Source of the DNA: Membranipora membranacea
Taxonomy: Eukaryota > Bryozoa > Gymnolaemata > Cheilostomatida > Membraniporidae
Direction of reading: 5' to 3'
Assembly: GCA_914767715.1 (NCBI GenBank)
Contig: OU612074.1
Coordinates: 14,246,062 to 14,310,061, forward strand
Length of the DNA stretch: 64,000 bases
Shown: positions 6,289 through 33,730 of the stretch, one piece after another
Layout of the letters: every line of letters starts with the position of its first letter
Position numbering within the stretch: the stretch's first letter is position 1
Made by a program: the position numbers and the translations under genes
The notes under the pieces: model-generated
Seen by the model: the letters and a program-made list of their open reading frames with translations, nothing else
What the model was told of the DNA's origin: nothing
Database searches by the model: none

Positions 6289-9200
6289 CTAGTCATTATC
6301 ATTAGGATGATAAATAACACCAGGAGTGTCCATGTTCTGCGCGGGAGGCTCGGCTTCCTCTTGCTGCCTAAAATTATTACCCACAACATCTGCTAAATTA
6401 ACATAATAAAACCCAGTTGTAATGTCTGTTGGATTTTAAATGTCTCATTATTTTAAGAATGGCGTCAAACAGCATGCAACAATTAGTTTTATTCAGATAT
6501 CATCATTTCAAATTATTTGACAAAATTGGACTGCGGCTGATAGGTTTCATAATACAGGTTGTTGTCAAGCTTGTCGAAGTACTGTCAATGATGCTTACCC
6601 AAATTCATAATGGCCATTTGTCCTCCGCCATCTCCAGAGTAAGATCCCAGCTCCCACAGGAATAGTAATGCACATTATTAACCCTTGTTTCTTTATATAT
6701 CGATCCCGCTCCTTTTCCTCCCTCTCCTCGCGCTCCTTTTCCTCTCTCTCCCTACGCTCCTTTTCCTCCCTCTCCTCGCGCTCCTTATTCTCCCTCTCCT
6801 CGCGCTCCTTTTCCTCCCTCTCCTTACGCTCCTTTTCCTCCCTCTCCTTGCGCTCCTTTTCCTCCCTCTCCTTGCGCTCCTTACGCTCCTTTTCCTCCCT
6901 CTCCTTACGCTCCTTTTCCTCCCTCTCCTTGCGCTCCTTATTCTCCCTCTCCTTGCGCTCCTTTTCCTCCCTCTCCTTGCGCTCCTTTTCCTCCCTCTCC
7001 TTGCGCTCCTTTTCCTCCCTCTCCTTGCGCTCCTTACGCTCCTTTTCCTCCCTCTCCTTACGCTCATTTTCCTCCCTCTCCTTGCGCTCCTTATTCTCCC
7101 TCTTCTTGCGCTCCTTTTCCTCCCTCTCCTTGCGCTCCTTTTCCTCCCTCTCCTTGCGCTCCTTGCGCTGCTTATCCTCAAGCTCCTTACGCTGTTGATG
7201 AAGGTCTGAAAAGACAAGTTTGTTGAATTTAAGCAACAGCCAGTACCCCTACTGTCTTACAAACACAAAGCACATTGCCAATTTGCTCCTGAACTGAGCA
7301 TCAATGTGAGAAACTAAAATATAAAAACCCAAATTTTACCTTTTCAGCTTTTGTGACACGACTGCTTTATATTATTACCAGAAAGCATTAATTTATCTCA
7401 CCTGTTACCTCAAGACGTAATATAAATCTTGCATCAGTAAGTAGGATAGTTGAGCGATGGGGTAGATAGAGCTGGGTAGCGGGATTGTGAAGACTACATA
7501 GAGATATATTTCCACCGACTGTACCTTCTGATGTTTTCGGCTTCAGGTTACAAATTGATGACACACTATTATTATTCAGATCAGCAATTCTGTAACACAA
7601 ATTGGATTTGTCTGTGATCATCAGTGTTCCATTGCTGAGCAATGTAAGGTGAGAGGGCTCGTTGAATAGGGAGTTAAAGAGAATTCCATCTGAATGGCCG
7701 ACGTCTTGCCCAGTTGATAGTGCTTTGATATTAAGTTGTGGACTTTGAAGAGTGAACCGATGTAGCCGGTTTTTAGTTGTGTAATAACCGTATTTCCCCT
7801 CAAAGTCAAGTGCCAAGCCCAACAATGGGAAGTTATCATGCCGTAAGACAGTTGACACTGTATCTATATGATCAAATTCAATCCTTCGTATTCGATAGTT
7901 CTCAGTGAGATACAGAGTGTGTGCAGTTGGATTTTTGATGATTTTGTTAGGGTAGTTAAACAGTGCCTGTTGAATTAGTCCATCTTTATGCCCCTGCTTA
8001 CCACAGATACCAACTAAAGGTTCTGGTTTTTCATTACTTCCACGGTTAAACAAAACCAAACAGTGGTTGCTGCCATTCACGATCAGAATGTTGTCTTTAT
8101 CCAGTTGAGCAAAGCTTGGATACCATGACGGGATAAGAGAGCCTTCTTCTGTTAGTCTTGTTATCATCGGATCTTCATTGGAGTCCCAATATAGCTTGTA
8201 GAGATTTGAGCCAGCTAAGTATAAAATGCTCCTAGCGTCTCGTAAATCAATCTCCATATGACTAACAGCCTCCAAGGTAGAGTGTTCAACGAGTTTAGAT
8301 AGTCGCCCAAACATTAGACTGTTGAATAAATAAAAGCCTATGTGACCTTGTACTGAAAATTATGGAATCCTTACTACTTCAAGGTGCAATGGGATAACTG
8401 CAAGGCCACACAGTTTTTATGTATATCTCACTAACATAACCACTCCTGAGAGGGTATTTCTGACCCCCTCCCCCCGTTCTGCAATTTCACACACTTAAAC
8501 TTACATGCATGATAGAACAACACGTGACTATGAGATCAAAAATTACTTTTGAAGGTTTGGGTTTACTGCTTAGACTCTAATAAACAGAATTTGTCCACGC
8601 TAAGGCAAGATTATAGCTCGCATGTCCCAGAAGTTGGAAACAAGTTCTGACAAACATTTCTGACAGTATACAGTTGACCTTTGACACCAGAAAATGTTAT
8701 AATTTGTACGTAGGTCAGACCATAATTATTAAAATGATATTTATATATTAGGTGTATGTAGTAGAGGTATGCGGCTGACAATAAAATTTTGCTCAATCCC
8801 GTCAACCTTGAATTTTGACCATCCAGGTCCTTCCAAAGTGCAATGTTAGACAAATTTCATTTCTCTCTCTGTCTCTCATCATTTTCATGTCTATCAAATA
8901 TCCATACCCGTCAAGCTTGTTTTAAGAAATCAAATTTTATTTACCCATCCACTGAAAGATTTATCCACCCGCCCATGCTCGTTTAGCACAGAATGTCCGT
9001 CCAATTCCAACCGAAACATGAATAATCAAAAATGATGTATGCAGCACAATTTAGTTGGTAGTCTGATCTACGTCAAATCTGAACCGCAAGATGATAAAAC
9101 CACCCATGTCACCAGAAGAAAGCACCAAATACCCGTACACCTGGCTGAAATAACAAAGGATATGCTGCACCGAGTACCTACCCAGCCATGTTACGCGGCT

Positions 9201-9696
9201 ACAACAAAAAAGGTAGCCGCGTGACAATGCTACCTTGTACCCCTATTGTCTGAGTTGTTAGATCTTTTACCAACATTATGACTTACCCATTCACTTCATT
9301 TCGAAATGATTCTCCAGTATTGGACTGGACCTCCGATACCTGATGAAAGAAAGAATTTCGTATTATTAATGTTATTTTTTTCTAATATCTATGACGTCCT
9401 GCTGAACTGAAACCAATATTTTCAGAATCAGTGTTTGATTAGCTTTCCAAAGATATATAAAATGCCCCATTCAGACAACGCTGGTATCATAACCTTAACC
9501 AGCCAGAGAAGTAGTAGGATAGCTATCAGAGTTTTTATTCACCGGGCTTAGGAGAGATATTATCAGTCATGGGCGAGACTGGGTCAAGTGTCATCACAAA
9601 CACATAAATAAATAAAGTATTTAAATGTTCATGGGTGTACTTTACCTTGCACATTGGAGGTAGCATCAGTAGCAAAATTAAACTCATACAAGTCAT
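6289..9696 (-). CDS. G1: NHL propeller - ER/K stalk - TM surface protein
   Basis: Five exons: 9646..9696, 9287..9339, 7402..8318, 6599..7205 and 6289..6367, all GT-AG with matching phases, giving about 568 residues. Residues 1-17 (MTCMSLILLLMLPPMCK) are a signal peptide; the start is the ATG conserved in P1 and G1-G3. Residues 36-340 form a predicted beta-propeller with two clear NHL repeats: GKQGHKDG...LYLTENYRIRRIEF and GHSDG...LMITDKSNLCYRI. Residues 341-509 are nearly all Glu, Arg and Lys in units of ERKEREEK, expected to form a single alpha-helix. One membrane segment follows (GLIMCITIPVGAGILLWRW), then RR and a tail ending YHPNDND. The order implies a type I surface protein: propeller outside, rigid stalk, short tail inside. 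NHL propellers bind protein, RNA or other ligands; the ligand here is unknown. The last exon (tail) closely resembles that of G5. Function is not identified. Confidence 0.88.
6705..7185 (-). repeat. 24-bp coding minisatellite of the G1 stalk
   Basis: On the plus strand the unit reads CTTTTCCTCCCTCTCC plus TTGCGCTC, 24 bases; on the minus strand it codes ERKEREEK. About 19 units with 9-bp deletions and single-base variants. Unit and indel lengths are multiples of three, so copy-number change keeps the gene in frame. Confidence 0.92.
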
Positions 9697-11443
9697 GATT
9701 TCAAGCAATCACAGTATCAAATCCGCAGTAAAGCTTAACATGTTAGCTAAAATGGCATTGCTGACACAGCAGTTTTGTGAGTGATCGTAATACTGACAAA
9801 AAGGTGACAATAACAATAAAACAACTGTTCCTTTCAAAACATTAATTCGAAAAAAGTTTTTAAATACATATTTGATTTAGGCACAATCAATCATCTAGAC
9901 AAAATTTGACTCAAACATAGTGGCCTGGTATTCACTCTATTGTGAGCATAAAGCTTTGCACTTTTGTTCCAAACTAATTTCTTATCGGCTTTCATTTCAG
10001 CTGTTTTATTCGTATTTCACTATAGCACACAACAGGAAGTAAATGAGTTTGCTAGATTTTTCCTGTTCATAATCATACCAATCAACATAGGTAGGGAACT
10101 GGTGTAAATCTTGGCTGCTGAGTTTTTAAATGTATATGGTATATGGTAGGGAATAGCTGAAATTGTTTTTGTAATATTACCTACGAACTGGACTTTAGCC
10201 AAAGGAGTTATGCTGTCCTAAAGCGTGAGAGGACAACTGAAAACATTATAAGCTACATCATGGATTCATTCCTTCGGTCTGGTGGAGGAGTCATATTATC
10301 GAGTAACAAGGTGCCTCCACCCAGCGTGATACCCTTAGGATTAAGGATTGGATTTATAGTTCAGGGTTGATCTTACAATACTTGTCGTCTTGGATCAAAT
10401 CACTGTGGCTATAGTGATTCCAGATTTGGTGATGGCTTATTGTTGCGGGAATAGACCATGGGGTCACTGTGTGTTTGCACACTTCATATGCCCTCCCCTG
10501 TGCCTGTGCAATTTAAAGACTATAGGACTAAATCGGATAACTCCTTTACATCAAAGATGATATCCTACCCTCCCTGGCCATTTGTCATATAACAGATAAA
10601 ACCTCTTGAGTTCAGTCCATCTTCATTTACACCTGTGACTGTCAGATCAGGCTATGCTACTTATTATTGTGGCTTGTGAATTTTTTATGTGAAATAGCTT
10701 CTGTAAATCATTATGCGTAAGTAAGTAGTCATCGTTCATTTCCATCACTTGTTACCTCGTATTATGTATCTCAATTAATCGCAAGTTTGTTCCAGAATGC
10801 AGTGAGAAGTGGAGTTTTGTCACCATTAAGTTGCAACCAGAATTTCTGCAGTTCTTTTTGTCAGAAGGGTTTAAAAGTTTTGCATAATTTGTGGATGAAT
10901 TAATCTATACCCTATCCTCATATTCGCTGTTGACAGGTTGTCTGCAACCGTTTTGACAATCTTGTGAAACATTTCACAGCAGCATAGACAGCAATTAGTA
11001 TGATGAAACTCGTTGCGGTAGATAAAATACAGGCAATTTCTGTTGCCAAGTTGGTTTACTATGGATCTAAACTGGTAGATCAGAATCCAATTCATGCAAA
11101 ATCAGAGCACTGCGGCTAAGTAGTGAAGTCCATTGTTACTTGATTTTTAAATAATCGCTAATAAAAAATTCTATACTATTCAACAAACCTCCTCATTGAG
11201 GCAGGGAGAATTCAAAAGCACAGAATCAGAACATAGATGAAATAGTGAATATAAAGAAATAATACAAAAAACACAATGTATGTTTTCAACTTAAATTTGG
11301 TTTACCATTCAACTAAGCTTGTGACTCTCAGATTGAGTCTTACATAATGTAAATGTAGTGCTCCATGGCCATTGACTAAGTTAAAGGTCTCAAACGGCTG
11401 CAAGCGAGGTTTTGTTGCATACCGTTGTCAGGCACTCCGTCTT
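9697..11443. other. Spacer upstream of G1
   Basis: No gene. The sequence is homologous to the spacer upstream of P1 and, more distantly, upstream of G2 and G3. It should contain the G1 promoter; I see no convincing TATA box near the start codon. The part near 11220..11440 is the 3' flank of G2. Confidence 0.6.
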
Positions 11444-14400
11444 CTAGTCATTATCATCAGGATATTGGTTAACACCAGCAGCGTCCATGTTCTGCGCGGG
11501 AGGCTCGACTTCCTCTTGCTGCCTAAAATTATTACCCACAATTTCTGCTAATATAACATAATAAAACCTACTTGAAGTTTCTGTTGGATTTTAAATGTCT
11601 CATTATTTTAAGAATGGCGCCAAACAGCATGCAACAATTAGTTTTATTCAGATATCATCATTTCAAATTATTTGACAAAATTGGACTGCGGCTGATAGGT
11701 TTCATAATACGGGTTGTTGTCAAGCTTGTCGAAGTTCTGTCAATGATGCTTACCCAAATTCATAATGGCCATTTATCCTCCGCCATCTCCAGAGTAAGAT
11801 CCCAGCTCCCACAGGAATAGTAATGCATATTATTAACCCTTGTTTCTTTATATATCGGTCCCGCTCCTTTTCCTCCCTCTCCTTGCGCTCCTTTTCCTCT
11901 CTCTCCCTACGCTCCTTTTCCTCCCTCTCCTCGCGCTCCTTTTCCTCCCTTTCCTTACGATCCTTTTCCTCCCTCTCCTTGCGCTCCTTTTCCTCCCTCT
12001 CCTCGCGCTCCTTTTCCTCTCTCTCCCTACGCTCCATTTCCTCCCTCTCCTTACGCTCCTTTTCCTCCCTCTCCTTGCGCTCCTTTTCCTCCCTCTCCTT
12101 GCGCTCCTTTTCCTCCCTCTCCTTGCGCTCCTTTTCCTCCCTCTCCTTGCTCTCCTTTTCCTCCCTCTCCTTACGCTCCTTTTCCTCCCTCTCCTTGCGC
12201 TCCTTTTCCTCCCTCTCCTTGCGCTCCTTTTCCTCCCTCTCCTTGCGCTCCTTTTCCTCCCTCTCCTTGCGCTCCTTTTCCTCCCTCTCCTTGCGCTCCT
12301 TTTCCTCCCTCTCCTTGCTCTCCTTGCGCTGCTTATCCTCAAGCTCCTTACGCTGTTGCAGAAGGTCTGAAAAGACAAGTTTGTTGAATTTAGGCAACAG
12401 CCAGTACCCCTACTGTCTTACAAACACAAACCACATTGCCAATTTGCTCCTGAACTGAGCATCAATGTGAGAAACTAAAATATAAAAACCCAAATTTTAC
12501 CTTTTCAGCTTTCATGACACGACTGCTTTATATCATTACCAGAAAGCATTAATTTATCTCACCTGTTACCTCAAGATGTAATATAAATGCTGTATCAGTA
12601 AGTAGGATAGCTGAGCGATGGGGTAGATAGAGCTGGGTAGTGGGACTGTGAAGACTACATTGAGATATGTTTCCACTGACTGTAACTTTTGGTGTTTTCG
12701 GCTTCAGGTTACAAATTGATGACACACGATTATTAATCAGATCAACAATTCTGTAACACAAATTGGATTTGTCAGTGATCATCAGTGTTCCATTGCTGAG
12801 CAATGTAAGGTGAGAGGGCTCGTTGAATAGGGAGTTAAAGAGAGATCCATCTGAATGGCCGACGTCTTGCCCAGTTGATAGTGCTTTGATATTAAGTTGT
12901 GGACTTTGAAGAGTGAACCGATGTAGCCGGTTTGTAGTTGTGTAATAACCGTAATTCCCATCAAAGTCAAATGCCAAGCCTAGTATTGGGAAGTTATCAT
13001 GCCGTAAGACAGTGGACACTGTATCTATATGATCAAATTCAATCCTTCGTATTCGATAGTTCTCAGTGAGATACAGAGTGTTTGCAGTTGGATTTTTGAT
13101 GATTTTGTAAGGATAGTCAAACAGTGCCTGTTGAATTAGTCCATCTTTATGCCCCTGCTTACCACAGATACCAACTAAAGGTTCTGGTTTTTCATGACCT
13201 CCACGGTTAAACAAAACCAAACAGTGGTGGCTGCCATTCACGATCAGAATGTTGTCTTTATCCAGTTGAGCAAAGCTTGGATACCATGACGGGATAAGAG
13301 AGCCTTCTTCTGTTAGTCTTGTTATCATCGGATCTTCATTGGAGTCCCAATATAGCTTGTAGAGATTTGAGCCAGCTAAGTATAAAATGCTCCTAGCGTC
13401 TCGTAAATCAATCTCCATATGACTAACAGCCTCCAAGGTAGAGTGGAGAACGAGACCAGATAGTCGCCCAAACAATAGACTGTTAAATGAATGAAAAATT
13501 ATGTGACCTTGTACTGAAAATTATGGAATCCTTACTACTTCAAGGTGGAATCAGATAACTGCGAGGCCACGCAGTTTTTAAATCTCGATACCAAACATTA
13601 GCAATATATCCCTCCACCACCACAGAGGGAACAAACTTGTTCTATACTGAGAGGGTATTTCTGCCCCGTTCTGCAATTTCACGCACTCACACGTACATGC
13701 GTGAGAGACCAAACCGTGACTATGAGATCAAAAATTAATTTTGAAGTTTAAGGTTCACTGCTTCAACTCTAAATAAACAGAATTTGTCCAAGCTATTGCA
13801 AGACTTCAGCTTGCATGTACCAGAAGTTAGAAACAAGTTCTGACAGTACATAGTTTGCCTTTGACACCAGAAAATGTTATAATTTGTACGTAGGTCAGAC
13901 CATAGTTATTTAAGTGTATATTAGGTTTGTATAGTAGAGGACAGAGGTAAGCGGCGGACAATAAGATTTTGCCCAATCCTGTCATCATTGAATTTTGATT
14001 GTCCATATCTGTCCAAAGTTAGACAAATTTCATTTCTCTGTACGTCCCTCCCTTATTTTCATGTCCATGAAATATCCATACCCGTCAAGCTTGTTTTAAG
14101 AAATCAAATTTGATTTACCCAGCCACTGAAAGATTTATCCACCCTCCCATACTCGTTTAGCACAGGATGTCCGTCCAATTCCAACCGAAACATGAATAAT
14201 CAAAAATGATGTATGCAGCACAATTTAGTTGGTAGTCTGATCTACGTCAAATCTGAACCGCAAGATGATAACACCACCCATGTCATCAAAAGAAAGAACC
14301 AAATACCCGTACACCTGGCTGAAATAACAAAGGATATGCTGCACCCAGTACCTACCCAGCCTTGTTACGCGGCTACAACAAAAAGGTTGCCGCGTGACGA

Positions 14401-14870
14401 TGCTACATTGTACCCCTATTGTCTGAGTTGTTAGATCTTTTACCGACATTATAACTTACCCATTCACTTCATTTCGAAATGATTCTCCATTATTTGAGTT
14501 TATCGGGACCTCCGATGCCTGATGAAAGAAAGAATTTCGTATTATTAATGTTATTTTTCTAATATCTATGACATCCTGCTGAAACCTATATTTTCAGAAT
14601 CAGTGTTTGATTAGCTTTCCAAAGATATATAAAATGCCCCATTCAGACAACGCTGGTATCATAACCTTAACCAGCCAGAGAAGTAGTAGGATAGCTATCA
14701 GAGTCTTTTTATTCACCGGGCTTAGGAGAGATATTATCAGTCATGGGCAGGACTGGGTCAAGTGTCATCACAAACACATAAATAAATAAAGTATTTAAAT
14801 GTTCATGGGTGTACCTTACCTTGCACATTGGAGGTAGCATCAGTAGCAAAATTAAACTCATACAAGTCAT
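11444..14870 (-). CDS. G2: NHL propeller - ER/K stalk - TM surface protein
   Basis: Five exons: 14820..14870, 14460..14518, 12563..13479, 11754..12366 and 11444..11522, about 572 residues. The signal peptide equals that of G1. Exon 2 is six bases longer than in G1 and codes ASEVPINSNNGESFRNEVNG. The propeller exon has the same 917-base length as G1 and close similarity throughout. The charged stalk is about 170 residues of ERKEREEK repeats, the longest in the array. The membrane segment is GLIICITIPVGAGILLWRW. The tail differs from G1, with VEPPAQNMDAAGVNQYPDDND split over the same exon, and is shared with G3 and G4. The upstream 2.8 kb is almost the same as that of G3, so these two units duplicated recently. 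Role as for G1: inferred type I surface protein of unknown ligand. Confidence 0.88.
11862..12345 (-). repeat. 24-bp coding minisatellite of the G2 stalk
   Basis: About 20 units of the 24-base repeat, more regular than in G1, with scattered variants giving SKE, MER and DRK residues. The register is kept throughout, so the helix heptad-like charge pattern runs on without a break. Confidence 0.92.
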
Positions 14871-17144
14871 GATTTCAAGTGATCACAGAATCAAATCCTC
14901 AGTAAAGCTTAACATGTTAGCTAAAATGGCGTTGCTGACACAGCAGTTTTGTGAGTGATCGGCACAGAATGGTAATTTATCGGTAATCGATAATGATGAC
15001 AAAAAGGTGAGTATAACAATAAAACAACTATTCCTTTCCAAACATTAATTCGAAAAAAGTTTTTGAATACATATTGATTTAGGCACAATCAATCATCTAG
15101 ACAAAAATTAACTCAAACGTAGTGGCCTGGTATTCACTCTATTGCGAGCATAAAGCTTTGCATTTTTGTTCCAAACTAATTTCTTATCGGCTTTCATTTC
15201 AGCTGTTTTATTCGTATTTCACTATAGCACACAACAGAAGTAAATGAGTTTGCTAGATTTTTCCTGTTCATAATCATACCAATCAACATAGGTAGGGAAC
15301 TGGTGTAAATATTGGCTGCTGAGTTTTTAAGTGTGTATATGGTATATGGTAGGGAATAGCTGAAATTGTGTTTGTAATTTTACCTACGAACCGGACTTTA
15401 GCCAAAGGAGTTATGCTGTCCTCAAGCGTGAGAGGACAACTGAAAACATTATAAGATACATCATGGATTCAGTCCTTTGGTCTGGTGGAGTAGTCATATT
15501 ATCCAGTAACAAGGTGCCTCCACCCAGCGTGATACCCTTAGGATTAAGGATTGGATTTATAGTTCAGGGTTGATCATACAATATTTGTAGTCCTGGATCA
15601 AAACACTGTGGCTATAAGTGATTCCAGATTTGGTGATTGCACATTGTTGCGGGACGAGACCATAGGTTCACTGTGTGTTTGCACACTTCATATGCCCTCC
15701 CCTCTGCCTGTGCAATATAAAGACTATAGGACTAAAGCGGATAACTCCTTTACATCAAAGATGATGTCCTACCCTCCCTGGCCATTTGTCATATAACAGA
15801 TAAATCCTCTTGAGTTCAGTCCATCTTTATTTACACCTGTGACTGTCAGATCAAGTTATGTTTTTTGTTATTGTAGCTTGTGTACTTTTTATGTGACGCC
15901 GCTTCAGTAAATCATTATGCGTTATAGTGCTTCACAGATGGATGGTGTACATGGAATTTCATGAAGTTTGTGGAATAGATCAAGATTATTTCCCTAAGCT
16001 ATCTTTATCGCTACCATGAAAGCTATTATCACATCACAACAGCCAATACTTTCATTAGACTGAAATAACGTTGTTACGTTGTGACAAATCATTTGACCTG
16101 CAGGAGCCATCAAAACAAGCAAATTAACAAAATCGAGAGGAGCTTTTCTTATCTGGCTATATCTCAGGAAGGTACGGGCGCCCGTCCTTAAAACTTTACA
16201 ATATGTAATTTGAGACATTGATGGATATAATGTGAAAGTAAGATGGTCATTGACCAATTAGCCCAGAAGTTGTGAGTGAAAAACGATGCAGATAAGCATG
16301 ACGGTTCTACGGTAGTAAGTAGTCATTGTTCATTTCCCTCACTTGTTACCTCGTATTATGATCTCAATTAATCGCAATTTTGTTCCAGATTGCGATGAGA
16401 TGTGGAGTTTTGTCACCATAAAGTTGTAACCATGATTTCTGCAGTTCTTGTGGTCAGAAGGGCCTAAAAGTATCGCATTTTACACAATTTGTAGATGATC
16501 TCTTCTATACCCTATCCTATCACCGGGGGGGGGGGGGGGGGCCGTCGGATGGGGAGGGGGCAAGAGTCTGGGGGCTCAGACTACATCTTAGCTTTCACTG
16601 TCAACAGGTTGTCTTCAACCATTTCGACAATCCTGTGAAATCTTTGACATGGATTAGTAAATGATGAAACTCAATGCAGTAGATAAAAGGCAGCCTTTCT
16701 GTTACCATGGTTTTAAATATGAATCCCACTGCACTGCGCCTACATAGTAAAGCTCTCTGAGCCCATTGATGCTTTATTATTAGATAATCGCTTATAAATA
16801 GACTTATCTCATCAAACCTTTTTACTGAGGCTCATTCAACCAGTTGTAATTTTATTTTGGAAAAAACATCGAAGATCTCTTATAAGGCTGAGGCTCAGTA
16901 TATATAAATCACTAATAAGCCCTGAATAAGCACTCATACAAGCCTTTTGCTGGTGATGTGTTTAGGAAATCTAGTTAGGACATCTGGGACTGATTGTACC
17001 TACCAACTACCTACTACATTATGCACAGCAGAAACAAAGTTGACATAACATGAAATATGGTAAATCCAAACACCTAGATCTAGCAGACTCTTTTAGTGGA
17101 AATATATATGGAGTGAAACTGACGTATAAAGCAATAGTTCCCAT
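14871..17144. other. Spacer upstream of G2
   Basis: No gene. About 15000..17140 matches 21800..23925 upstream of G3 nearly base for base. It holds a 17-G tract at 16525..16541 and a shared short open frame near 15994..16257 that is not conserved in frame in the second copy, so I do not call it coding. Confidence 0.6.
16525..16541. repeat. Poly-G tract (17 G)
   Basis: Uninterrupted G run; the equivalent place upstream of G3 (about 23350..23363) has a shorter, interrupted G-rich stretch. Confidence 0.9.
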
Positions 17145-17617
17145 TGTAACATATAAATCAGATGACCTCACCAAGGATGCGACCACTGGCTGCTTGATAT
17201 GTTAAAACAGCGGTACTTTGAGTACCCTTAATCTCAAGGATGTAGGCTCTAGCTGGGTGTGGGAAACCGATGATCTCACTTTACTTGGTTGTATAATCTG
17301 ATGAAGTTTTATGTGATAAATAAATTAGTGAAATTAGTGAAATTATCTACGGTGTGAGTAGGGACGGATGTGACTGATTAACATATAAATTCGCTGGAAG
17401 TCAAAGTCAAGTCAGTTGTTTGTTGGCAGTTATTTTGAAAGTAAGCTGAAGTAAGCCGACTTGTTTGAGGAGCTTCTTTATTTTCTGAACATCTATATCG
17501 TCTGAATACAAAGTTGGATATAATAAAGATCATGGTAAATAAATAAGAAATCATATTGTTGGATTTCTTCTCCCCTGACCTCGTAAAAAGAACCTGATGA
17601 TGTACGAATATCGTACA
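17145..17617. mobile_element. Solo LTR with 4-bp target duplication
   Basis: The segment begins TGTAACATATAAATC and ends AATATCGTACA, so it has TG...CA ends, and is flanked by CCAT at 17141..17144 and 17618..17621. The empty site survives at 4851..4862 (reading TTCCCATGACTC), with a single CCAT. It is 473 bp with AATAAA-like motifs near the 3' part and no open frame. These traits fit a solo long terminal repeat left by recombination of an LTR retrotransposon; the superfamily cannot be set from the LTR alone. Confidence 0.8.
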
Positions 17618-18072
17618 CCATGACTCAATCTTTAGTTTTGAGGAGTAACAATCATTGTATTGGAGTTAATTCCACAGTCACAAATTGCTGTGGAAAACAT
17701 GTCAATACAAAGGCCTATAGAAAACGATCAACCAATAGAGGTTTTCCCCAGGAACTAGAAATGAGTCATGGAAATTGTCTCCAAGAAGTTTCTCTTCGGA
17801 AAACTCACTGTACACAATGTCATCAATGTCCTGTTTCCCAAAATACTACCCTGTGTCTACCAGCCGAGTCTTCAATCGGCCAATCATGATGTATATATAG
17901 CAAGACACACTCTGTTAATAATCCGAGTGTGTGGAGGGCAGGGTGTTGTAAAAACCCAGGCTATCCAAAAGCACAGAACCAGAACATAGATGAACTAGTG
18001 AATATAAAGAAATAATACAAAAAACACATTGTAGATTTTCAACTAAGCTTGAGACTCTCAGATTGAGTCTTA

Positions 18073-18565
18073 GGCTTGGTTCACATTGTCCCAGATGACA
18101 CTAGGATGCCATCCGAGATGCTTATCCCAGTCACATTTTAACATTCATCCCAGATAGCCATCCCAGATAGCCATCCCAGATAGCCATCCCAGATAGCCAT
18201 CCCAGATAGCCATCCCAGATAGCCATCCCAGATAGCCATCCTAGATAGCCATCCCAGATAGCCATCCCAGATAGCCATCCCATTCGATGTGAACCAGAAA
18301 ATGACACAATCCCAGACTGTCTGGGTCCGTCTGGGATAGCATCGGGAAAGTTCGTAAGCGTCAAACTTTCCCGATGCTATCCCAGACGGACCCAGACAGT
18401 CTGGGATTGTGTCATTTTCTGGTTCACATAAACTGGGATGGCTATCAGGGATGGCTATCTGGGATGGCTATCTGGGATGGCTATCTGGGATGAATGTTAT
18501 AATGTGACTGGGATAAGCATCTGGGACGATGGCATAGTGTCATCTGGGACAATGTGAACCAAGCA
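18073..18565. mobile_element. Foldback MITE, PIF/Harbinger-like ends
   Basis: Ends GGCTTGGTTCACATTGTCCC and, on the other strand, TGCTTGGTTCACATTGTCCC are flanked by TTA at 18070..18072 and 18566..18568. The empty site is seen at 11335..11350 and 6153..6165. TTA is the usual PIF/Harbinger target (TWA). The whole 493-bp element is one large palindrome: terminal repeats, then arms of a 14-bp minisatellite (about 10 units left, 4-5 right), then a perfect 64-bp inverted repeat (18289..18352 with 18364..18427). No transposase frame. It sits in the 3' flank of G3. Confidence 0.8.
18289..18427. repeat. Perfect 64-bp inverted repeat, 11-bp loop
   Basis: Bases 18289..18352 and 18364..18427 are exact reverse complements, separated by 11 bases. 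This is the core of the foldback element. Confidence 0.92.
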
Positions 18566-21600: not shown

Positions 21601-21694
21601 CATAAATAAATAAAGTATTTAAATGTTCATGGGTGTACCTTACCTTGCACATTGGAGGTAGCATCAGTAGCAAAATTAAACTCATACAAGTCAT
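18670..21694 (-). CDS. G3: NHL propeller - short stalk - TM surface protein
   Basis: Five exons: 21644..21694, 21284..21342, 19385..20301, 18980..19187 and 18670..18748, about 437 residues. Signal peptide and linker match G2 (ASEVPLNSNNG). The propeller exon is again 917 bases. The stalk is cut to about 34 residues (LRQQRKELEDKQRKERKERK and a few more), one fifth of G2, although flanking DNA is almost identical to G2; contraction of the minisatellite is the simplest reading. The membrane segment is GLIIICITILVGAGILFWTW. The tail starts GHQEEVEPP rather than GQQ, as in G4. Reading frame and all splice phases are intact, so this looks like a working short-stalk version. Confidence 0.87.
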
Positions 21695-23928: not shown

Positions 23929-24000
23929 TGTAACATATAAATCAGATGACCTCATCAAGGATGCAACCACTGGCTGCTTGATATGTTAAAACAGCGGTAC
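23929..24000. mobile_element. Truncated copy of the solo LTR
   Basis: The first ~72 bases of the LTR found complete at 17145..17617, starting at the same position after TTCCCAT. It stops at GGTAC and is joined directly to the middle of a foldback MITE. Compared with G2's unit, about 1.1 kb is missing across the junction. Confidence 0.8.
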
Positions 24001-24452
24001 TGGGATAGCATCGGGAAAGTTCGTAAGCGTCAAACTTTCCCGATGCTATCCCAGACGGACCCAGACAGTCTGGGATTGTGTCATTTTCTGGTTCACATTG
24101 ACTGGGATGGCTATCTGGGATGGCTATCTGGGATGGCTATCTGGGATGGCTATCTGGGATGGCTATCTGGGATTGCTATCTGGGATGGCTATCTGGGATG
24201 GCTATCTGGGATGGCTATCTGGGATGGCTATCTGGGATGGCTATCTGGGATGGCTATCTGGGATGGCTATCTGGGATGGCTATCTGGGATGGCTATCTGG
24301 GATGGCTATCTGGGATGGCTATCTGGGATGGCTATCTGGGATGGCTATCTGGGATGGCTATCTGGGATGGCTATCTGGGATAAATGTTATAATGTGACTG
24401 GGATAAGCATCTGGGATGGCATAGTGTCATCTGGGACGATGTGAACCAAGCA
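24001..24452. mobile_element. Half foldback MITE, right part
   Basis: Starts inside the 64-bp inverted repeat of the element at 18073..18565 and runs to the same right end (CCAAGCA, then TTA). The left terminal repeat is gone. The 14-bp minisatellite arm is expanded to about 20 units here. Confidence 0.8.
24103..24385. repeat. 14-bp minisatellite (GGATGGCTATCTGG)
   Basis: About 20 nearly perfect copies of a 14-base unit in the right arm of the truncated MITE. With 14 not a multiple of three, all frames stay open and repeat as WDGYLGWLSGMAI; this is not evidence of coding. Confidence 0.93.
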
Positions 24453-24556
24453 TTACATAATGTAAATGAAGTACTCCATGGCCATTGACTTAGTTAAAGG
24501 TCTCAAACGGCTGCAAGCGAAGTTTTGTTGCATACCGTTGTCAGGCACTCCGTCTT

Positions 24557-27500
24557 CTAGTCATTATCATCAGGATATTGGTTAACACCAGCAGCGTCCA
24601 TGTTCTGCGTGGGAGGCTCGACTTCCTCTTGATGTCTAAAATTATTATACAAAATTTCTGCTAAATTAACACAAAGAAACCCAGTTGAAACGTCTAATGG
24701 ATTTTATATGTCTCATTGTTTTAAGAATGGCGTCAAACAGCATGCAACAATTAGTTTTATTCAGATATCATCATTTCAAATTATTTGACAAAATTCGTCT
24801 ACAGCTGATAGGATGCATAATACAGGTTGTTCTCAAGCTTGTAAAAATTCTATCATTAATACTTACCCGAACTTATAATGGCCATTTATCCTCCGCCATC
24901 TCCAAAGTAAGATCCCTGCTTCCACAAGAATAGTAATGCATATTATCGACCTTTGCTTCTTTGTATACTTGTCACGCTCCTTTTCCTCCCTCTCCTTACG
25001 CTCCTTTTCCTTTTGCTCCTTTTTCTCCCTCCCCTTACGCTCCTTATTCTCCCTCTCTTTACGCTCCTTTTCCTCCTTTTTCTCCCTCTCATTACGCTCC
25101 TTTTCCTTTCGCTCCGTTTTCTCTCTCTCCTTACGCTCATTTTCCTCCCTCTTCTTACGCTCCTTTTCCTTACGCTCCTTTTCCTCCCTCTCCTTACGCT
25201 CCTTTTCCTTACGCTCCTTCTCCTCCCTTTCCTCACTCTCCTTGCGCTGCTTGTCCTCAAGCTCCTTACGCTGTTGCAGAAGGTCTGAAAAGACAAGTTT
25301 GTTGAATTTAAGCAACAGCCAGTACCCCTACTGTCTTACAAACACAAACCACATTGCCAATTTGCTCCTGAACTGAGCATCAATGTGAGAAACTAAAATA
25401 TAAAAACCCAAATTTTACCTTTTCGGCTTTTATGACACGACTGCTTTATATCATTACCAGAAAGCATTAATTTATCTCACCTGTTACCTCAAGACGTAAT
25501 ATTAATCTTGTATCAGTAAGTAGGATAGTTGAGCGATGGGGTAGATAGAGCTGGGTAGCGGGATTGTGAAGACTACATTGAGATATGTTTCCAATGATTG
25601 TAAATTTTGGTTCTTTCGGCTTCAGGTTACAAATTGAGGACACATGATTATTAATCAGATCAACAATTCTGTAACACAAATTAGATTTGTCAGTGATCAT
25701 CAGTGTTCTATTGCTGAGCAATGTAAGGTGAGAGAGCACATTAAATAGGGAGTTAAAGAGAAATCCATCTGAATGGCCGACGCTTTGCCCTGTTGATAGT
25801 GCTTTGATATTAAGTTGTGGACTTTGAAGAGTGAACCGATGTAGCCGGTTTTCAGTTGTGTAATAACCGTAATTCCCATCAAAGTCAAGTGCCAAGCCTA
25901 GTATTGGGAAGTTATCATGCCGTAAGACAGTTGACACTGTATCTATATGATCAAATTCAATCCTTCGTATTCGATAGTTCTCAGTGAGATACAGAGTGTT
26001 TGCAGTTGGATTTTTGATGATTTTGTTAGGGTAGTCAAACAGTGCCTGTTGAATTAGTCCATCTCTATGCCCCTGCTTACCACAGATACCAACTAAAGGT
26101 TCTGGTTTTTCATAACTTCCACGATAAAACCAAAGCAAACAGTGGTGGCTGCTGTCCACGATTAGAATGTTATCTTTATCCATTTGAGCAAAGCTTGGGT
26201 ACCATGACGGGTTAAGAGACCCTTCCTCTGTTAGTTCTATTATCAACGGATCTTCATTGGAGTCCCAATATAGCTTGTAGAGATTTGAGCCAGCTGAGTA
26301 TAAAATACTCCTAGCGTCTCGTAAATCAATCTCCATATGACTAACAGCCTCCAAGGTAGAGTTGTGTTTAACGAGTTTAGATAGTCGCCCAAACAATAGA
26401 CTGTTAAATAAATAAAAGCCTATGTGACCTTGTACTGAAAATTATGGAATCCTTACTACTTCAAGGTGCGATGGGATAACACAAGGCCACACAGTTTTTA
26501 TGTATATCTCACTAACAGAACCACTCCTGAGAGGGTATTTCTGACCCCTCCCCCCGTTTTGCAATTTCACACACTTACACTTACACTTACATGCGTGATA
26601 GAACAAAACGTGACTATGAGATCAAAAATTACTTTTGAAGGTTTGGGTTTACTGCTTAGACTCTAATAAACAGAATTTGTCCATGCTAAGGCAAGATTTC
26701 AGCTCGCATGTCCCAGAAGTTGGAAACAAGTTCTGACAAACATTTCTGACAGTGTACAGTTGACCTTTGACACCAGAAAATGTTATAATTTGTACATAGG
26801 TCAGACCATAATTATTGAAGTGATGTTTATATATTAGGTGTATGTAGTAGAGGTATGCGGCGGACAAAAATTTTTGCTCAATCCCGTCAACCTTGAATTT
26901 TGACCATCCAGGTCTTTCCAAAGTGCAATGTTAGACAAATTTCATTTTTCTCTCCGTCTCTCTTCATTTTCATGTCTATCAAATATCCATACCCGTCAAG
27001 CTTGTTTTAAGAAATCAAATTTGATTTACCCAGCCACTGAAAGATTTATCCACCCTCCCATACTCGTTTAGCACAGAATGTCCGTCCAATTTCAACCGAA
27101 ACAAAAATAATCAAAAAGGATGTATGTAGCACAATTTAGTTGGTAGTCTGATCTACGTCAGGTTTGATCTACGTCAGGTCTGAACCGCAAGATGATAACA
27201 CCACCCATGTCACCAAAAGAAAGAACCAAATACCCGTACACCAGGCTGAAATATAAAAAGGATATGCTGCACCCAGTACCTACCCAGCCTTGTTACGCGG
27301 CTACAACAAGAAGGTTGCCGCGTGACGACGCTACCTTGTACCCCTATTGTCTGAGTTGTTAGATCTTTTAGCAACATTATGACTTACCCATTCACTTCAT
27401 TTCGAAATGATTCTCCATTATTTGAGTTTATTTGGACTTCTGATGCCTGATGAAAGAAAGAATTTCGGATTATTAATATTGTTTTTTCTAGTTACAATGT

Positions 27501-28023
27501 ATTAACCTATATAAAGTTTAATCCAATTGCCTGTATTACAGCTGCTCCCTTCCACTGGTCACGCCGCCGCTGCCGCTGCCATAGCCTGTCTCGACTAGCT
27601 TTGTTAGGTGGGTGAACAAAGCTTGTCAACTCTTGCATGCTTGATGTCGAGCTGTTTCGATTAAGGATTGTCCCCTCTTGTGATCGGGTAGATAGCTTCT
27701 TGATCACCCCCCCCCCCCCACCAAATAAAGCTTGTCAAGGCAGGCTACCGCTGCCCCTGCAGCGTGACTAATGGATCGGGAGCAACTTGTAATGCAGGCA
27801 AATGGACCAAACTTGGTCTAGTATTTATTAGAGAAGTAGTAGGATAGCTATCAGAGTTGTTTTATTCACCGGGCATAAGAGAGATATTATCAGTCAGGTG
27901 TAAGACTGGACCAAGTGTCATCATAAACGTATAAACTTATAAAGTATTCAAATGTTTATGGTTGTAACTTACCTTGCACATTTGCTGTAGCATCAGTAGC
28001 AAAATAAAACTCCTGAATATCAT
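24557..28023 (-). CDS. G4: NHL propeller - irregular charged stalk - TM protein
   Basis: Five exons: 27973..28023, 27388..27446, 25481..26400, 24867..25284 and 24557..24635, about 508 residues. The signal peptide is MIFRSFILLLMLQQMCK, unlike G1-G3 but like G5; an in-frame ATG at 28122 would add 33 residues, but the shorter start places the hydrophobic stretch at the N-terminus. The propeller exon is three bases longer than in the others (KHNSTLEAV). The stalk, about 105 residues, is still Glu/Lys/Arg-rich but irregular, mixing 8-residue and 5-residue units (ERKEREEK and ERKEK) with Thr, Asn and Gln. The membrane segment (SIICITILVEAGILLWRW) carries a Glu inside. The tail is of the G2/G3 type, with PTQNM in place of PAQNM. 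A MITE lies in intron 1. Upstream DNA is unrelated to that of G1-G3. Confidence 0.87.
24973..25240 (-). repeat. Irregular coding minisatellite of the G4 stalk
   Basis: Mixture of 24-base and 15-base units (the difference is the 9-base CCTCCCTCT, coding REE) with many substitutions. All length steps are multiples of three. Confidence 0.85.
27511..27817. mobile_element. Foldback MITE in intron 1 of G4
   Basis: Left end AAGTTTAATCCAATTGCCTG pairs with the right end read on the minus strand, AAGTTTGGTCCATTTGCCTG; the match continues through ATTACA and GCTCCC. The inner GC-rich arms also pair, and a run of C at 27707..27719 lies in the loop. About 310 bp, no open frame. The same element is in intron 1 of G5 and absent from G1-G3. 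Confidence 0.75.
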
Positions 28024-28599
28024 ATCTACAACCAAGGAGAATTTAGATTTCTTAGTAAATTGTAGTGTAGGTTTGAAACAAGGACGCTTGAGAAGTTTTG
28101 AAAGTAATGCTGATGCAATCATGATTGGCTATATGGCTGACATGCCATGACCAAAAAAGAAACTTACTGCTTCTCCTTACAAAACATAAATTTAATCAAA
28201 CTGATATACATATATAAACAGTAGAAATGCTACAGATATGAATGCCACAAAACTCAGGTGGTGTGGATAACAGGTAGCTGTTGTATCATCTAGCTTGGCA
28301 ATGTTTAAACCAATAAAAATGTAGGTACCTGTGAGTGAATGAAGTAGACCCAGGCTATCCACAGTTTACACAGCCGACTAATTTGAATTAAGGGTTAATC
28401 CTAATAAGCTGGCAGCAGGGCTGACCTGTGAGTTAAGTGTGAGACTTATTTAGTGAAACGACTTACTGAGGTATATGCTATTGAGCTATGAGGTAAACAA
28501 GCATTCACTGTAAGCTTATCCAGGAGAGTTAATAGCGTATAAGTGAGGACTTGCTTATCTTTTTACTGAGAGCGATATGATTGTTTGATTGATTGATTG
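28024..28599. other. Upstream region of G4
   Basis: No gene. Nearly identical to 33731..34300 upstream of G5 and unlike the upstream regions of P1 and G1-G3. It is the likely promoter region of G4. Confidence 0.6.
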
Positions 28600-29262
28600 A
28601 TTGATTGTATTCTATCACTAACATAAAATAATATGTTGCGAGATAAGGGTGTTCATACTGAGAAGGAGCCAGCACATACAAGGAAAAATAAGATTAAACA
28701 CTGATGGATGATTAAAAGAGAATATCATTTAAAATATGGATAGCATGCCTCAAAAAACAGTCTTTACCAAGGGCACTTCTGTGTTTAATTGTTCGATACC
28801 TGCCTGAGGGGCATTTAGCAAGAAAGTTGTTCATAAAGTGGTCATCGTCATGGATATATCGGAGGGCAAGTGTTTTGGTATGCTTAGTCATAAGGCTGTC
28901 GAGATCATCTACTTGGAGTTTGAGCTTTGAGACCTGATCAAAAAACTTGCTCAAACGTTTCTTGTCTTTAGCAAAAATAGTAGTGTATAATACTGGTAAA
29001 CAATAAGTGAGCAGGGAAACAATAAAACTTTTAAATAACATAGTGGCAAGGGGTATGGTGCTAAGATGTACAAAATTCCTGACAATATACATTCGCTGCT
29101 CAGCTTTACTCACAACAGACTGAATGTGTTCTTCAAAGCGCAGCTAATGATCTAACATAATACCAAGATAAGTGACTTTGTCACACATAGTAATGCTTTC
29201 ACCATTTAAAACAATAGGAGGGGTATGGGGCTAGGTGTTTACCTTAGCCATAGATAACATAT
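28600..29262 (-). mobile_element. LINE relic: C-terminal reverse transcriptase part
   Basis: On the minus strand it codes VTYLGIMLDH, then RFEEHIQSVVSKAEQRMY, FKSFIVSLLTYCLPVLYTTI and AKDKKRLSKFFDQVSKLK, the typical C-terminal end of a non-LTR retrotransposon reverse transcriptase. Two stop codons interrupt the upstream part. The 3' end runs into a short GATT microsatellite at about 28584..28609, a common LINE tail. It is a 5'-truncated dead copy; the clade (CR1-like is a guess) is not certain. A near-identical copy lies at 34310..34960. Confidence 0.75.
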
Positions 29263-29264
29263 AA

Positions 29265-29640
29265 CTGAGTCCCTGATAGCAAGAGAGGGTGTTTTGGCTT
29301 AAGACTGTGAATCAGCGTCACAAAATGTTGATAATGATGAGCTAGATCAATGATTATGTAAAGATTATTGGGGTTAACGTTTATTTCCTGTTGAAGATCG
29401 TTTTTTTGAGCCGGCACATGAATTGATGGCTCAATACTAAGTTCTGGACTTTCCAGTGTAACCTTATGCAGTATGGGTATAGAGTCGTGTAGTGACCTTG
29501 ATTTCTTCTCAAGCATTTGTTGGCAGACCTTATAATGCAGAGTATTAGTTTTTAAGAGCTCTCTATATGCTGTGTGTATATGATCAAATGTTTAAAAATT
29601 TTACATGTATATATCCATCAATCATAGACATGATAAGAGT
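29265..29640 (-). pseudogene. Diverged NHL-family relic
   Basis: The minus strand codes LHKVTLESPELSIEPSI and, further on, LYIIIDLAHH and LIHSLKPKHPLL, then GTQLYV. These align in order with LHRFTLQSPQLNIKALS, LCYRIVDLINN, SICNLKPKTP and ATQLYLPH of the intact propellers. Only this part of the propeller exon is left and it ends where the LINE relic begins. It is an old dead copy, duplicated with G4/G5. Confidence 0.7.
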
Positions 29641-30167
29641 TGTCCCCCGTTGTGTATGAAAGTGGCTCCAAAATCTATTTGATCGCAGCCAGAAGATCAA
29701 CCGACTTTGGCGGTGACGGAGTTATCTTCTTTAATAGCTTTTCTACTCAGAAAATGAAAGCTTGGCCTGGACCGAGACCGAGACAGGGACTTTGCCATCA
29801 CTAATCAGCTGAATCTTCAATCGGCCAATCATGATGTATATATAGCAAGACACGCTCTGCCAGTAATCCGAGTGTGTGGAGGGGATCGTGTTGAAAAAAC
29901 CCAGGCTATTTAAAAGAACAGAACCAGAATGTGGATTAATATAAATATAAATATAAAAAAATACTACAAAACACAATGTATATTTTCAACATTAACTTGG
30001 TCCAGCATTTAATAAAACTTGTGAGTCTCAGATTGAGTCTTGCATAATGTAAATGTAGTGCTCTGAGGCCATTGACCATGTTAAAGGGCTCTAACGTCTG
30101 CAAGCGAGGTTTTGTTGCATACCGTTGTCAGGTACTCCTTCTTTTGGAATGGTGCAACATCTTAAGC
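29641..30167. other. 3' flank of G5
   Basis: No gene. From about 29780 the sequence matches 5860..6288 downstream of G1, and part of it (29815..29930) also matches 17865..17975. It contains an ATTAAA motif about 150 bases past the G5 stop. Confidence 0.6.
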
Positions 30168-33100
30168 CTAGTCATTTTCATTAGGATGATAAATAACACC
30201 AGGAGCGTCCATGTTCTGCGCGGGAGGCTCGGCTTCCTCTTGCTGCCTAAAATTATTCCCCACAATTTCTGCTAAATTAACATAATGAAACCTACTTGAA
30301 GTTTCTGTTGGATTTTAAATGTCTCATTATTTTAAGAATGGCGCCAAACAGCATGCAACAATTATTTTTATTCAGATATCATCATTTCAAATTATTTGAC
30401 AAAATTGGACTGCGGCTGATAGGTTTCATAATACAGGTTGTTGTCAAGCTTGTTGAAGTTCTGTCAATGATGCTTACCCAAATTCATATTGGCCATTTGT
30501 CCCCCACCATCTCCAGAGTAAGATCCCCGCTCCCACATGAATAGTAATGCATATTATTAACCCTTGTTTCTTTATATATCGGTCCCACTCCTTTTCCTCC
30601 CTCTCCTCGCGCTCCTTTTCCTCTCTCTCCCTACGCTCCTTTTCCTCCCTCTCCTCGCGCTCCTTATTCTCCCTCTCCTCGCGCTCCTTTTCCTCCCTCT
30701 CCTTACGCTCCTTTTCATCCCTCTCCTTGCGCTCCTTATTCTCCCTCTCCTTGCGCTCCTTTTCCTCCCTCTCCTTGCGCTCCTTTTCCTCCCTCTCCTT
30801 GCGCTCCTTTTCCTCCCTCTCCTTGCGCTCCTTACGCTCCTTTTCCTCCCTCTCCTTGCGCTCCTTTTCCTCCCTCTCCTTGCGCTCCTTACGCTCCTTT
30901 TCCTCCCTCTCCTTGCGCTCCTTTTCCTCCCTCTCCTTGCGCTCCTCTTCCTCCCTCTCCTTGCGCTCCTTGCGCTGCTTATCCTCAAGCTCCTTACGCT
31001 GTTGCAGAAGGTCTGAAAAGACAAGTTTGTTGAATTTAAGCAACAGCCAGTACCCCTACAGTCTTACAAACACAAACCATATTGCCAATTTGCTCCTGAA
31101 CTGAGCATCAATGTGAGAAATTAAAATATAAAAAACCCAAATTTTACCTTTTCAGCTTTTGTGACACAACTGCTTTATATCATTACCAGAAAGCATTAAT
31201 TTATCTCACCTGTTACCTCAAGACGAAATATGAATATCCCATCAGTAAGTAGGATAGTTGAGCGATGAGGTAGATAGAGCTGGGTACCGGGATTGTGAAG
31301 ACTACATAGAGATATGTTTCCAGCGATTGTAAATTTTGGTGTTTTCGGCTTCAGGTTACAAATTGATGACACACGATTATTAATCAGATCAACAATTCTG
31401 TAACACAAATTAGATTTGTCAGTGATCATCAGTGTTCCATTGCTGAGCAATGTAAGGTGAGAGGGCTCGTTGAATAGGGAGTTAAAGAGAAATCCATCTG
31501 AATGGCCGACGCTTTGCCCTGTTGATAGTGCTTTGATATTAAGTTGTGGACTTTGAAGAGTGAACCGATGTAGCCGGTTTTTAGTTGTGTAATAACCGTA
31601 TTTCCCCTCAAAGTCAAGTGCCAAGCCCAACAATGGGAAGTTATCATGCCGTAAGACAGTTGACACTGTATCTATATGATCAAATTCAATCCTTCGTATT
31701 CGATAGTTCTCAGTGAGATACAGAGTGTTTGCAGTTGGACTTTTGATGATTTTGTAAGGGTAGTCAAACAGTGCCTGTTGAATTAGTCCATCTCTATGCC
31801 CCTGCTTACCACAGATACCAACTAAAGGTTCTGGTTTTTTATAACTTCCACGATGAAACCAAACCAAACAGTGGTGGCTGCCGTCCACGATTAGAATGTT
31901 ATCTTTATCCGTTTGAGCAAAGCTTGGATACCATGATGGGATAAGAGAGCCTTCCTCTGTTAGTTCTGTTATCATCGGATCTTCATTGGAGTCCCAATAT
32001 AGCTTGTAGAGATTTGAGCCGGCCGAGTATAAAATACTCCTAGCGTCTCGTAAATCAATCTCCATATGACTAACAGCCTCCAAGGTAGAGTGTTTAACGA
32101 GACCAGATAGTTGCCCAAACAATTGCCTGTTAAATGAATGAAAACTTATGTGACCTTGTACTGAAAATTATGGAATCCTTACTACTTCAAGGTGGAATCG
32201 GATAACTGCGAGGCCACGCAGTTTTTAAATCTCGATACCAAACATTAGCAATATATCCCTCCACCACCACAGAGGGAACATACTTGTTCGATACTGAGAG
32301 GGTATTTCTGCCCCGTTCTGCAATTTCACGCACTCACACGTACATGCATGAGAGACCAAACCGTGACTATGAGATCAAAAATTAATTTTGAAGTTTAAGG
32401 TTCACTGCTTCGACTCTAAATAAACAGAATTTGTCCACGCTATTGCAAGACTTCAGCTTGCATGTACCAGAAGTTAGAAACAAGTTCTGACAGTACATAG
32501 TTTGCCTTTGAAACCAGAAAATGGTATAATTTGTACGTAGGTCAGACCATAGTTATTTAAGTGTAGATTAGGTTTGTATAGTAGAGGACAGAGGAAAGCG
32601 GCGGACAATAAAATTTTGCCCAATCCTGTCATCATTGAATTTTGATTGTCCATATCTGTCCAATGTTAGACAAATATCATTTCTCTGTACGTCCCTCCCT
32701 TATTTTCTGTCCATCAAATATCCATACCCGTCAAGCTTGTTTTAAGAAATAAAATTTGATTTACCCAGCCACTGAAAGATTTATCCACCCTCCCATACTC
32801 AGAATGTCCGTCCAATTTCAACCGAAACAAAAATAATCAAAAAGGATGTATGTAGCACAATTTAGTTGGTAGTCTGATCTACGTCAAATCTGAACCGCAA
32901 GATGATAACACCACCCATGTCATCAAAAGAAAGAACCAAATACCCGTACACCAGGCTGAAATAACAAAGGATTCGCTGCACCCAGTACCTACCCAGCCTT
33001 GTTACGTGGCTACAACAAAAAAGGTATCCGTATGACAATGCTACCTTGTACCCCTATTGTCTGAGTTGTTAGATCTTTTAGCAACATTATGACTTACCCA

Positions 33101-33730
33101 TTCACTTCATTTCGAAATGATTCTCCATTATTTGAGTTTATTTGGACCTCTGATGCCTGATGAAAGAAAGAATTTCGGATTATTAATATTGTTTTTTCTA
33201 GTTACAATGTATTAACCTATATCAAGTTTAATCCAATTGCCTGTATTACAGCTGCTCCCTTCCACCGGTCACGCCGCCGCTGCCGCCGCCATAGCCTGTC
33301 TCGACTAGCTTTGTTAGGTGGAGGAACAAAGCTTGTCAACTCTTGCATGCTTGATGTCGAGCTGTTTCGATTAAGGATTGTCCCCTCTTGTGATCGGGTA
33401 GATAGCTTCTTGATCACCCCCCCCCCACCAAACAAAGCTTGTCAAGGCAGGCTACCGCTGCCCCTGCAGCGTGACTAATGGATCGGGAGCAACTTGTAAT
33501 GCAGGCAAATGGACCAAACTTGGTCTAGTATTTATTAGAGAAGTAGTAGGATAGTTATCAGAGTTGTTTTATTCACCGGGCATAAGAGAGATATTATCAG
33601 TCAGGTGTAAGACTGGACCAAGTGTCATCATAAACGTATAAACTTATAAAGTATTCAAATGTTTATGGTTGTAACTTACCTTGCACATTTGCTGTAGCAT
33701 CAGTAGCAAAATAAAACTCCTGAATATCAT
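30168..33730 (-). CDS. G5: NHL propeller - ER/K stalk - TM surface protein
   Basis: Five exons: 33680..33730, 33098..33156, 31210..32126, 30478..31012 and 30168..30246, about 546 residues. Signal peptide, linker and intron 1 (with its MITE) match G4, but intron 2 is of the G2/G3 type and the last exon and 3' flank are of the G1 type (YHPNEND tail), so the gene is a mosaic. The propeller begins GQLFGQLSGLVKHSTLEAV. The stalk is about 144 residues of regular ERKEREEK repeats, then GLIICITIHVGAGILLWRW, with a His inside the membrane segment, and WGTNGQYEFG. Frame and splice phases are intact. Confidence 0.87.
30590..30980 (-). repeat. 24-bp coding minisatellite of the G5 stalk
   Basis: About 16 units of the same 24-base repeat as in G1, with ENKE, DEKE and 9-bp-deleted variants in a similar order to G1, which fits the shared 3' half of these two genes. 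Confidence 0.9.
33224..33536. mobile_element. Foldback MITE in intron 1 of G5
   Basis: Near-identical to the element in intron 1 of G4 at the same position, with a shorter C run in the loop (11 rather than 13). It was carried by duplication, not by a second insertion. Confidence 0.75.

Follow-up and report, generated by a model that had tools for sequence, protein, structure and literature searches.

A minus-strand tandem gene array in Membranipora membranacea with NHL-type propeller heads and charged stalks of unequal, predicted single-helix length

A window of 64,000 nucleotides from the bryozoan Membranipora membranacea (assembly GCA_914767715.1, contig OU612074.1, positions 14,246,062 to 14,310,061 of the forward strand) was analysed. 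It carries a tandem array of five intact genes, named c1 to c5, all on the minus strand, together with a sixth, decayed copy. With moderate confidence, the array is read as a set of type I membrane proteins that would show one shared head at different heights on rigid stalks. The outward head would be a six-bladed NHL propeller, whose last strand would continue straight into a mast, a single alpha-helix (SAH) of Glu, Arg and Lys (E/R/K). The mast would lead into one membrane helix, maybe as a continuous helix, and then into a short acidic cytoplasmic tail. The near-identical head would thus stand at about 5, 15, 21, 25 and 25 nm, which would set the partners or surfaces that it can reach. Furthermore, unequal crossing-over of a 24-base in-frame repeat would alter the mast length and leave the gene unbroken, and recombination among the copies would reshuffle segments. 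We infer the ligand binding by the head, the spacer role of the stalk and the unequal crossing-over.

The gene models were built exon by exon, each with five exons. The reading frame from ATG to stop was open and the splice sites were GT-AG in all five models, and the intron phases were 0, 2, 1 and 2 in c1 to c4; the exon lengths gave the same phases for c5. The result was in agreement with a first-pass annotation made from the letters alone, which had claimed five intact genes in a row with identical exon phases. In each model, the leader is followed by a linker of 17 residues (c1) or 19 residues (the other copies) and a junction Gly, then by the propeller exon, by exon 4 with the charged stretch and the membrane segment, and by exon 5 with the acidic tail. 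Exon 3 encodes a propeller of 305 residues in c1, c2, c3 and c5 and of 306 residues in c4. When exon 3 was started from an earlier AG (TACAAGG), the phases disagreed; the acceptor ...CAACAG or TAACAG restored them in all five copies. The models were as follows.

9696-6289, minus strand: c1, 568 residues; exons 9696-9646, 9339-9287, 8318-7402 (propeller), 7205-6599 (165-residue stalk and membrane segment) and 6367-6289 (tail)
14870-11444, minus strand: c2, 572 residues; exons 14870-14820, 14518-14460, 13479-12563 (propeller), 12366-11754 (167-residue stalk and membrane segment) and 11522-11444 (tail)
21694-18670, minus strand: c3, 437 residues; exons 21694-21644, 21342-21284, 20301-19385 (propeller, modelled), 19187-18980 (31-residue stub and membrane segment) and 18748-18670 (tail)
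28023-24557, minus strand: c4, 508 residues; exons 28023-27973, 27446-27388, 26400-25481 (propeller), 25284-24867 (irregular 102-residue stalk and Glu-containing membrane segment) and 24635-24557 (tail)
33730-30168, minus strand: c5, 546 residues; exons 33730-33680, 33156-33098, 32126-31210 (propeller), 31012-30478 (141-residue stalk and membrane segment) and 30246-30168 (tail)

The leader, assigned by eye and by hydropathy, is hydrophobic and 17 residues long. The hydropathy of the membrane segment was 1.58, 1.72, 2.43, 1.38 and 1.63 in c1 to c5, respectively. The products of c1 to c5 would be ordered as type I membrane proteins with a short acidic cytoplasmic tail, as far as export and topology can be predicted from their sequences, and the earlier proposal of signal peptide, propeller, stalk, membrane segment and tail in this order was supported.

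In c1 to c5, the charged stretch was 165, 167, 31, 102 and 141 residues long, respectively, a spread of about fivefold, and the corresponding spans would be 24.8, 25.1, 4.6, 15.3 and 21.1 nm if the stretch were wholly helical. Varied stalks had been noticed in the first-pass annotation, and this part stood, with length differing most between the copies (31-167 residues); the annotation had given neither the lengths nor the c3 stub, nor the sixth copy, which lies outside 6289-33730. The share of E, R and K in the stalk was 94, 94, 81, 87 and 93%, respectively. Opposite charges exceeded same charges at i,i+4 spacing relative to composition-matched shuffles, with z values of 10.9, 11.7, 2.9, 6.1 and 9.6. 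By this charge-pattern count the SAH pattern was clear in c1, c2, c4 and c5, and c3 is a stub of 31 residues with a z of 2.9. Moreover, the stalks contained only one or two hydrophobic residues and no hydrophobic seam. The pattern matches a single alpha-helix, as the first-pass annotation had held, and differs from that of a coiled coil; the stalk would be rigid.

A 24-base tandem repeat within the coding sequence underlies the stalk in four of the five copies, and no repeat array was detected for c3 at the score threshold used for the others. The repeat search gave the following rows.

6707-7164, minus strand: c1 24-base coding repeat, unit ERKEREEK, about 19 copies
11862-12325, minus strand: c2 24-base coding repeat, about 19 copies
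24974-25272, minus strand: c4 degenerate coding repeat, rows with periods of 24, 39 and 63
30588-30971, minus strand: c5 24-base coding repeat, about 16 copies

Since 24 is a multiple of three, gain or loss of a unit keeps the reading frame. Several further frames of the repeat were also open, as a by-product, and the true frame of the stalk was fixed by the neighbouring exons.

The sixth copy was assembled from our own reading of the sequence.

about 3148-573, minus strand: decayed sixth copy, with exon 1 beginning at 3148 and an exon-2 remnant at about 2827-2773
about 2450-1500, minus strand: exon 3, with two in-frame stops, one deletion and one break
964-856, minus strand: exon 4, with a membrane segment and without the E/R/K repeat
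660-573, minus strand: exon 5, with a good acceptor and a tail that can be aligned to the c2 tail

On the same reading, its exon 2 is broken. By tblastn, its propeller pieces shared 67-68% identity with c3 and again showed the two in-frame stops. In exon 4, a DLLEQNK junction runs directly into the membrane segment, the hydropathy of which was 2.08. The stalk would be an added module, because the sixth copy has propeller, membrane segment and tail but no stalk between them. Most simply, expansion of the 24-base coding repeat would have added the stalk; loss of the stalk from the sixth copy is also possible. The spacer role claimed for the stalk in the first-pass annotation remains the simplest interpretation. 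In addition, the retained exon 5, its acceptor and its alignable tail supported the fifth exon and the frame of the acidic tail.

The head was predicted with confidence to be an NHL-type closed six-bladed beta-propeller. The NHL type, already proposed from the letters, was borne out by sequence profile, fold comparison and a structure model, in which the head closes into six blades. With the PF01436 profile (NHL repeat), two of the five copies, c3 (24.2 bits) and c5 (21.3 bits), scored above the curated cut-off of 20 bits. The nearest propeller, both by sequence profile and by fold, was of the SOQ1/NHLRC2 type. The heads of c1, c2, c4 and c5 were 88-92% identical to that of c3.

Relatives of the head were searched for among 5.8 billion proteins with E limits of 1e-3, 0.01 and 10, which gave 2, 4 and 10 matches, respectively, from 11 distinct proteins (P0001 to P0011); only candidates with shared short words were scored (7992, 3446 and 3611). 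The closest relatives were P0001 (68% identity), P0002 (59%), P0004 (53%, with half of the query covered) and P0003 (43%). P0001 and P0003 scored below the PF01436 cut-off, P0002 had no match to this profile, and neither had the 171-residue piece of the sixth copy. Four Cys and many core residues were retained down to about 43% identity, and since many core residues were kept across P0001 to P0003, the family appears to have been constrained over longer times. The distant matches P0010 and P0011 carry what we take, from the accession numbers, to be thioredoxin-type and NHL Pfam domains. Searches of genome contig and viral contig collections with the query A1 gave no match. A minus-strand open reading frame (ORF) at 34942-35205 was faintly propeller-like (tblastn E 0.067), and a similar piece lies at 29262-29471 (E 0.47); they are perhaps older relics or chance matches.

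The structure model was obtained from an alignment of 38 sequences, consisting of the five copies, P0001 to P0009 and 24 bacterial loci drawn from 80. Of these 80 loci, 79 had an ORF of more than 380 residues, which together with P0010 and P0011 gave 81 sequences and 31 non-redundant ones; P0010 and six loci were then left out, and L001 stands for P0011. The bacterial rows are 19-24% identical to c3, so that the model leans on them. An earlier model from 7 sequences, with a predicted local distance difference test score (pLDDT) of 39.9, was set aside in favour of the 38-sequence model.

The copies are recombinant mosaics. Intron 1 set c4 and c5 apart from c1 to c3 (83 sites), and the 600 bases upstream of c4 and c5 could not be aligned to those of c1 to c3 (difference about 0.55). 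Intron 2 joined c1 with c4 (70 sites), intron 4 joined c3 with c4 (16 sites) and c2 with c5 (5 sites), and exon 5 joined c1 with c5 (8 sites), while the grouping by exon 3 was mixed.

Several observations weigh against the reading of one head carried at different heights. The PF01436 scores of c1, c2 and c4 (17.6, 15.4 and 15.3 bits) were under the cut-off, and the in-family protein matches were single-exon ORFs on short contigs, in which any stalk is out of view. The membrane segments of c1 (1.58) and c4 (1.38) were borderline by hydropathy. The stalk lengths in nanometres presume an unbroken helix, and a long stalk is not essential, because c3 is almost without one. Furthermore, the stalk codon variants were close to neutral: among 24 distinct single-base variant types, 13 were charge-breaking, 7 synonymous and 4 same-charge, against expected fractions of 0.59 charge-breaking, 0.22 synonymous, 0.14 same-charge and 0.05 stop, and four of five more types that need two changes were charge-breaking. 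Recent residue changes in the head were likewise near neutral. The 110 distinct head substitutions comprised 81 nonsynonymous, 29 synonymous and no stop changes (neutral expectation 76.4, 29.8 and 3.8), with a pooled ratio of the type of nonsynonymous to synonymous rates (dN/dS) of 1.09 and pairwise values of 0.62-1.44 over 10 pairs.

These near-neutral changes in head and stalk, the decay of one of the six copies and the Glu inside the membrane segment of c4 would suit a relaxed or dying array, that is, young duplicates of little function whose repeat length drifts neutrally and whose end state is the sixth copy. We regard this as unlikely. The five copies contain no stop or frameshift, and the absence of stops among the head substitutions (P = 0.02) indicated that the head ORFs were maintained. 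Every splice site was also kept, and the retention of core residues and of the four Cys down to about 43% identity points to long-term constraint.

It is improbable that the copies are diversifying recognition receptors, differing in the ligand specificity of the head with the stalk secondary. Variation was found at 59 of the 305 head positions and was mildly clustered along the sequence (p 0.02 for the variance, 0.04 for the maximum), the dN/dS was as high as 1.44 for the pair c1-c2, and segments were shuffled by recombination, all of which would suit such receptors. However, neither propeller face was enriched in variable positions, with 25/101 on the loops of the face presumed to point away from the membrane and 11/56 on the other face (p 0.55); loops (36/157) differed from strands (20/142) only at p 0.055, with the strand limits for these counts set by hand from the structure model. 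The pooled ratio was about 1 and not clearly higher, and the four other heads were nearly the same as that of c3. The recognition role suggested in the first-pass annotation is therefore weak, and a diversified recognition system was unsupported, because there was no face enrichment and the 81 nonsynonymous and 29 synonymous changes fit neutrality, a pattern that leaves some probability to the relaxed array. A further alternative, very improbable, is that the E/R/K residues form no mast. They would then make up a disordered or binding segment, such as a polyampholyte that attaches to membranes, to matrix or to nucleic acid, or else lie in the lumen or the cell interior as part of a protein that is not exported. 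In its favour, the leader is short and judged by eye, and the excerpt of PMC5812594 places reported SAH proteins mostly among nuclear, RNA-related and cytoskeletal ones. Against it, the i,i+4 pattern lies far over the shuffles in four copies and the invariant Cys would suit an oxidising compartment.

For the proposed head-on-mast proteins, several known systems can be compared. SOQ1 and NHLRC2, the nearest in the propeller, have a thioredoxin-like domain before it, and the array copies have none; only 35 (c1) or 37 (c2 to c5) residues precede the propeller exon, which leaves no room for such a domain. Unlike SOQ1/NHLRC2, the array proteins have a leader, a stalk, a membrane segment and a tail. 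Teneurins have a very large ectodomain, further domains after the NHL propeller and a different membrane order. Their solved chains, at 1395-1982 residues, greatly exceed the array models of 437-572 residues, in which the stalk and membrane segment come straight after the propeller, and TEN_NHL reached only E 0.21 in c5. The E/R/K composition and the i,i+4 charge pairing are common to the array stalks and to SAH (ER/K) domains such as those of myosins and drebrin. The array stalk would be extracellular, unlike most reported SAH domains, and the same excerpt (PMC5812594) lists adhesion-related binding for human SAH proteins as well. In the Periscope Proteins SasG, Rib and Sgo_0707, as described in an excerpt of PMC8201768, near-identical coding repeats give a stalk of variable length that sets the stand-off of the head. 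Similarly, the array stalk ranges over 31-167 residues across five paralogues, with repeats in four of five, and would project from the surface. Periscope Proteins are bacterial, whereas the array genes need introns and are eukaryotic, so that the likeness is in the working only. Moreover, the Periscope stalk consists of folded domains and varies in length between strains, whereas that of the array is a charged single helix and varies between paralogues.

A wider proposal, which is tentative and rather doubtful, is that the array is a eukaryotic periscope system with one head at several fixed heights, a recombining array and an in-frame SAH repeat as an evolvable ruler, in which splicing may switch to stalkless or short-tailed forms. 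The components are of known kinds, and their joint occurrence with a series of stalk lengths within a single array is a new variant as far as our searches show. In a limited search of the open-licence PMC literature, none of the titles and abstract openings listed described a propeller-stalk family of this order. If the proposal were true, eukaryotes too could tune the reach of surface receptors through the number of repeats, and the ruler would be a single helix instead of folded repeats. The naturally occurring stalk lengths (about 5, 15, 21, 25 and 25 nm), which carry nearly the same head, would then serve to test distance-dependent contacts, and natural rigid spacers would become available for protein design.

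With respect to splicing, the frame in which exon 5 would be read after skipping of exon 4 contains a hydrophobic run between basic residues, WTLLVLFIILMIM in c1 (6289-6367), which is also present in c5 (30168-30246) and weaker in c2 to c4. The chance of such a run was P 0.003-0.047 over the five copies from exon-3 codon usage, and P 0.0007 (c1) and 0.009 (c2) under uniform codons. Because the skip would remove the stalk together with the membrane helix, a stalkless form anchored through this segment is conceivable. As the main frame of exon 5, the hydrophobic frame was rejected: it meets a stop at once in the sixth copy, whereas the acidic-tail frame can be aligned there to c2. In addition, AATAAA occurs in intron 4, 106 bases past exon 4, in all five copies, and the exon-4 donor itself creates an in-frame TAA. 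A short-tailed isoform ending within intron 4 is possible on these signals. The longer form was favoured because the sixth copy has a homologue of exon 5. What speaks against exon 5 is its divergence, which surpassed that of intron 4 in 6 of the 10 pairs of the five copies.

Other features were found around the array. No match was obtained in an Rfam search at the gathering score, and a tRNA search found none. Two closely similar ORFs lie upstream of c4 and c5 and resemble, by eye, a reverse transcriptase of a retroelement at its end; they had only weak Pfam matches to Pdc1_Ge1 and apparently belong to the duplicated unit. Two 13-base minisatellites overlap the arms of a 98% complementary inverted repeat. 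Further along, pieces of a reprolysin-type metalloprotease were both under the Pfam cut-offs, one being an ORF that ends in THEVGHL (PF13582, E 8e-4) and the other a piece that matched the propeptide weakly (E 0.034).

28712-29143 and 34449-34841, minus strand: reverse-transcriptase-like ORFs
18146-18282 and 24102-24381: 13-base minisatellites, 10.5 and 21.5 copies
57349-57585 and 61637-61948, minus strand: metalloprotease pieces
51101-53329, minus strand: three Cys-rich repeats that resemble one another (CAQFLS..G...ACDWDIVK.HCCASRSQYC), then NP-rich tracts, perhaps exons of one gene
39274-40137, minus strand: ORF of 288 residues without a Pfam match, Cys-containing at its start and Thr/Ser/Pro-rich over a long tract, mucin-like by eye
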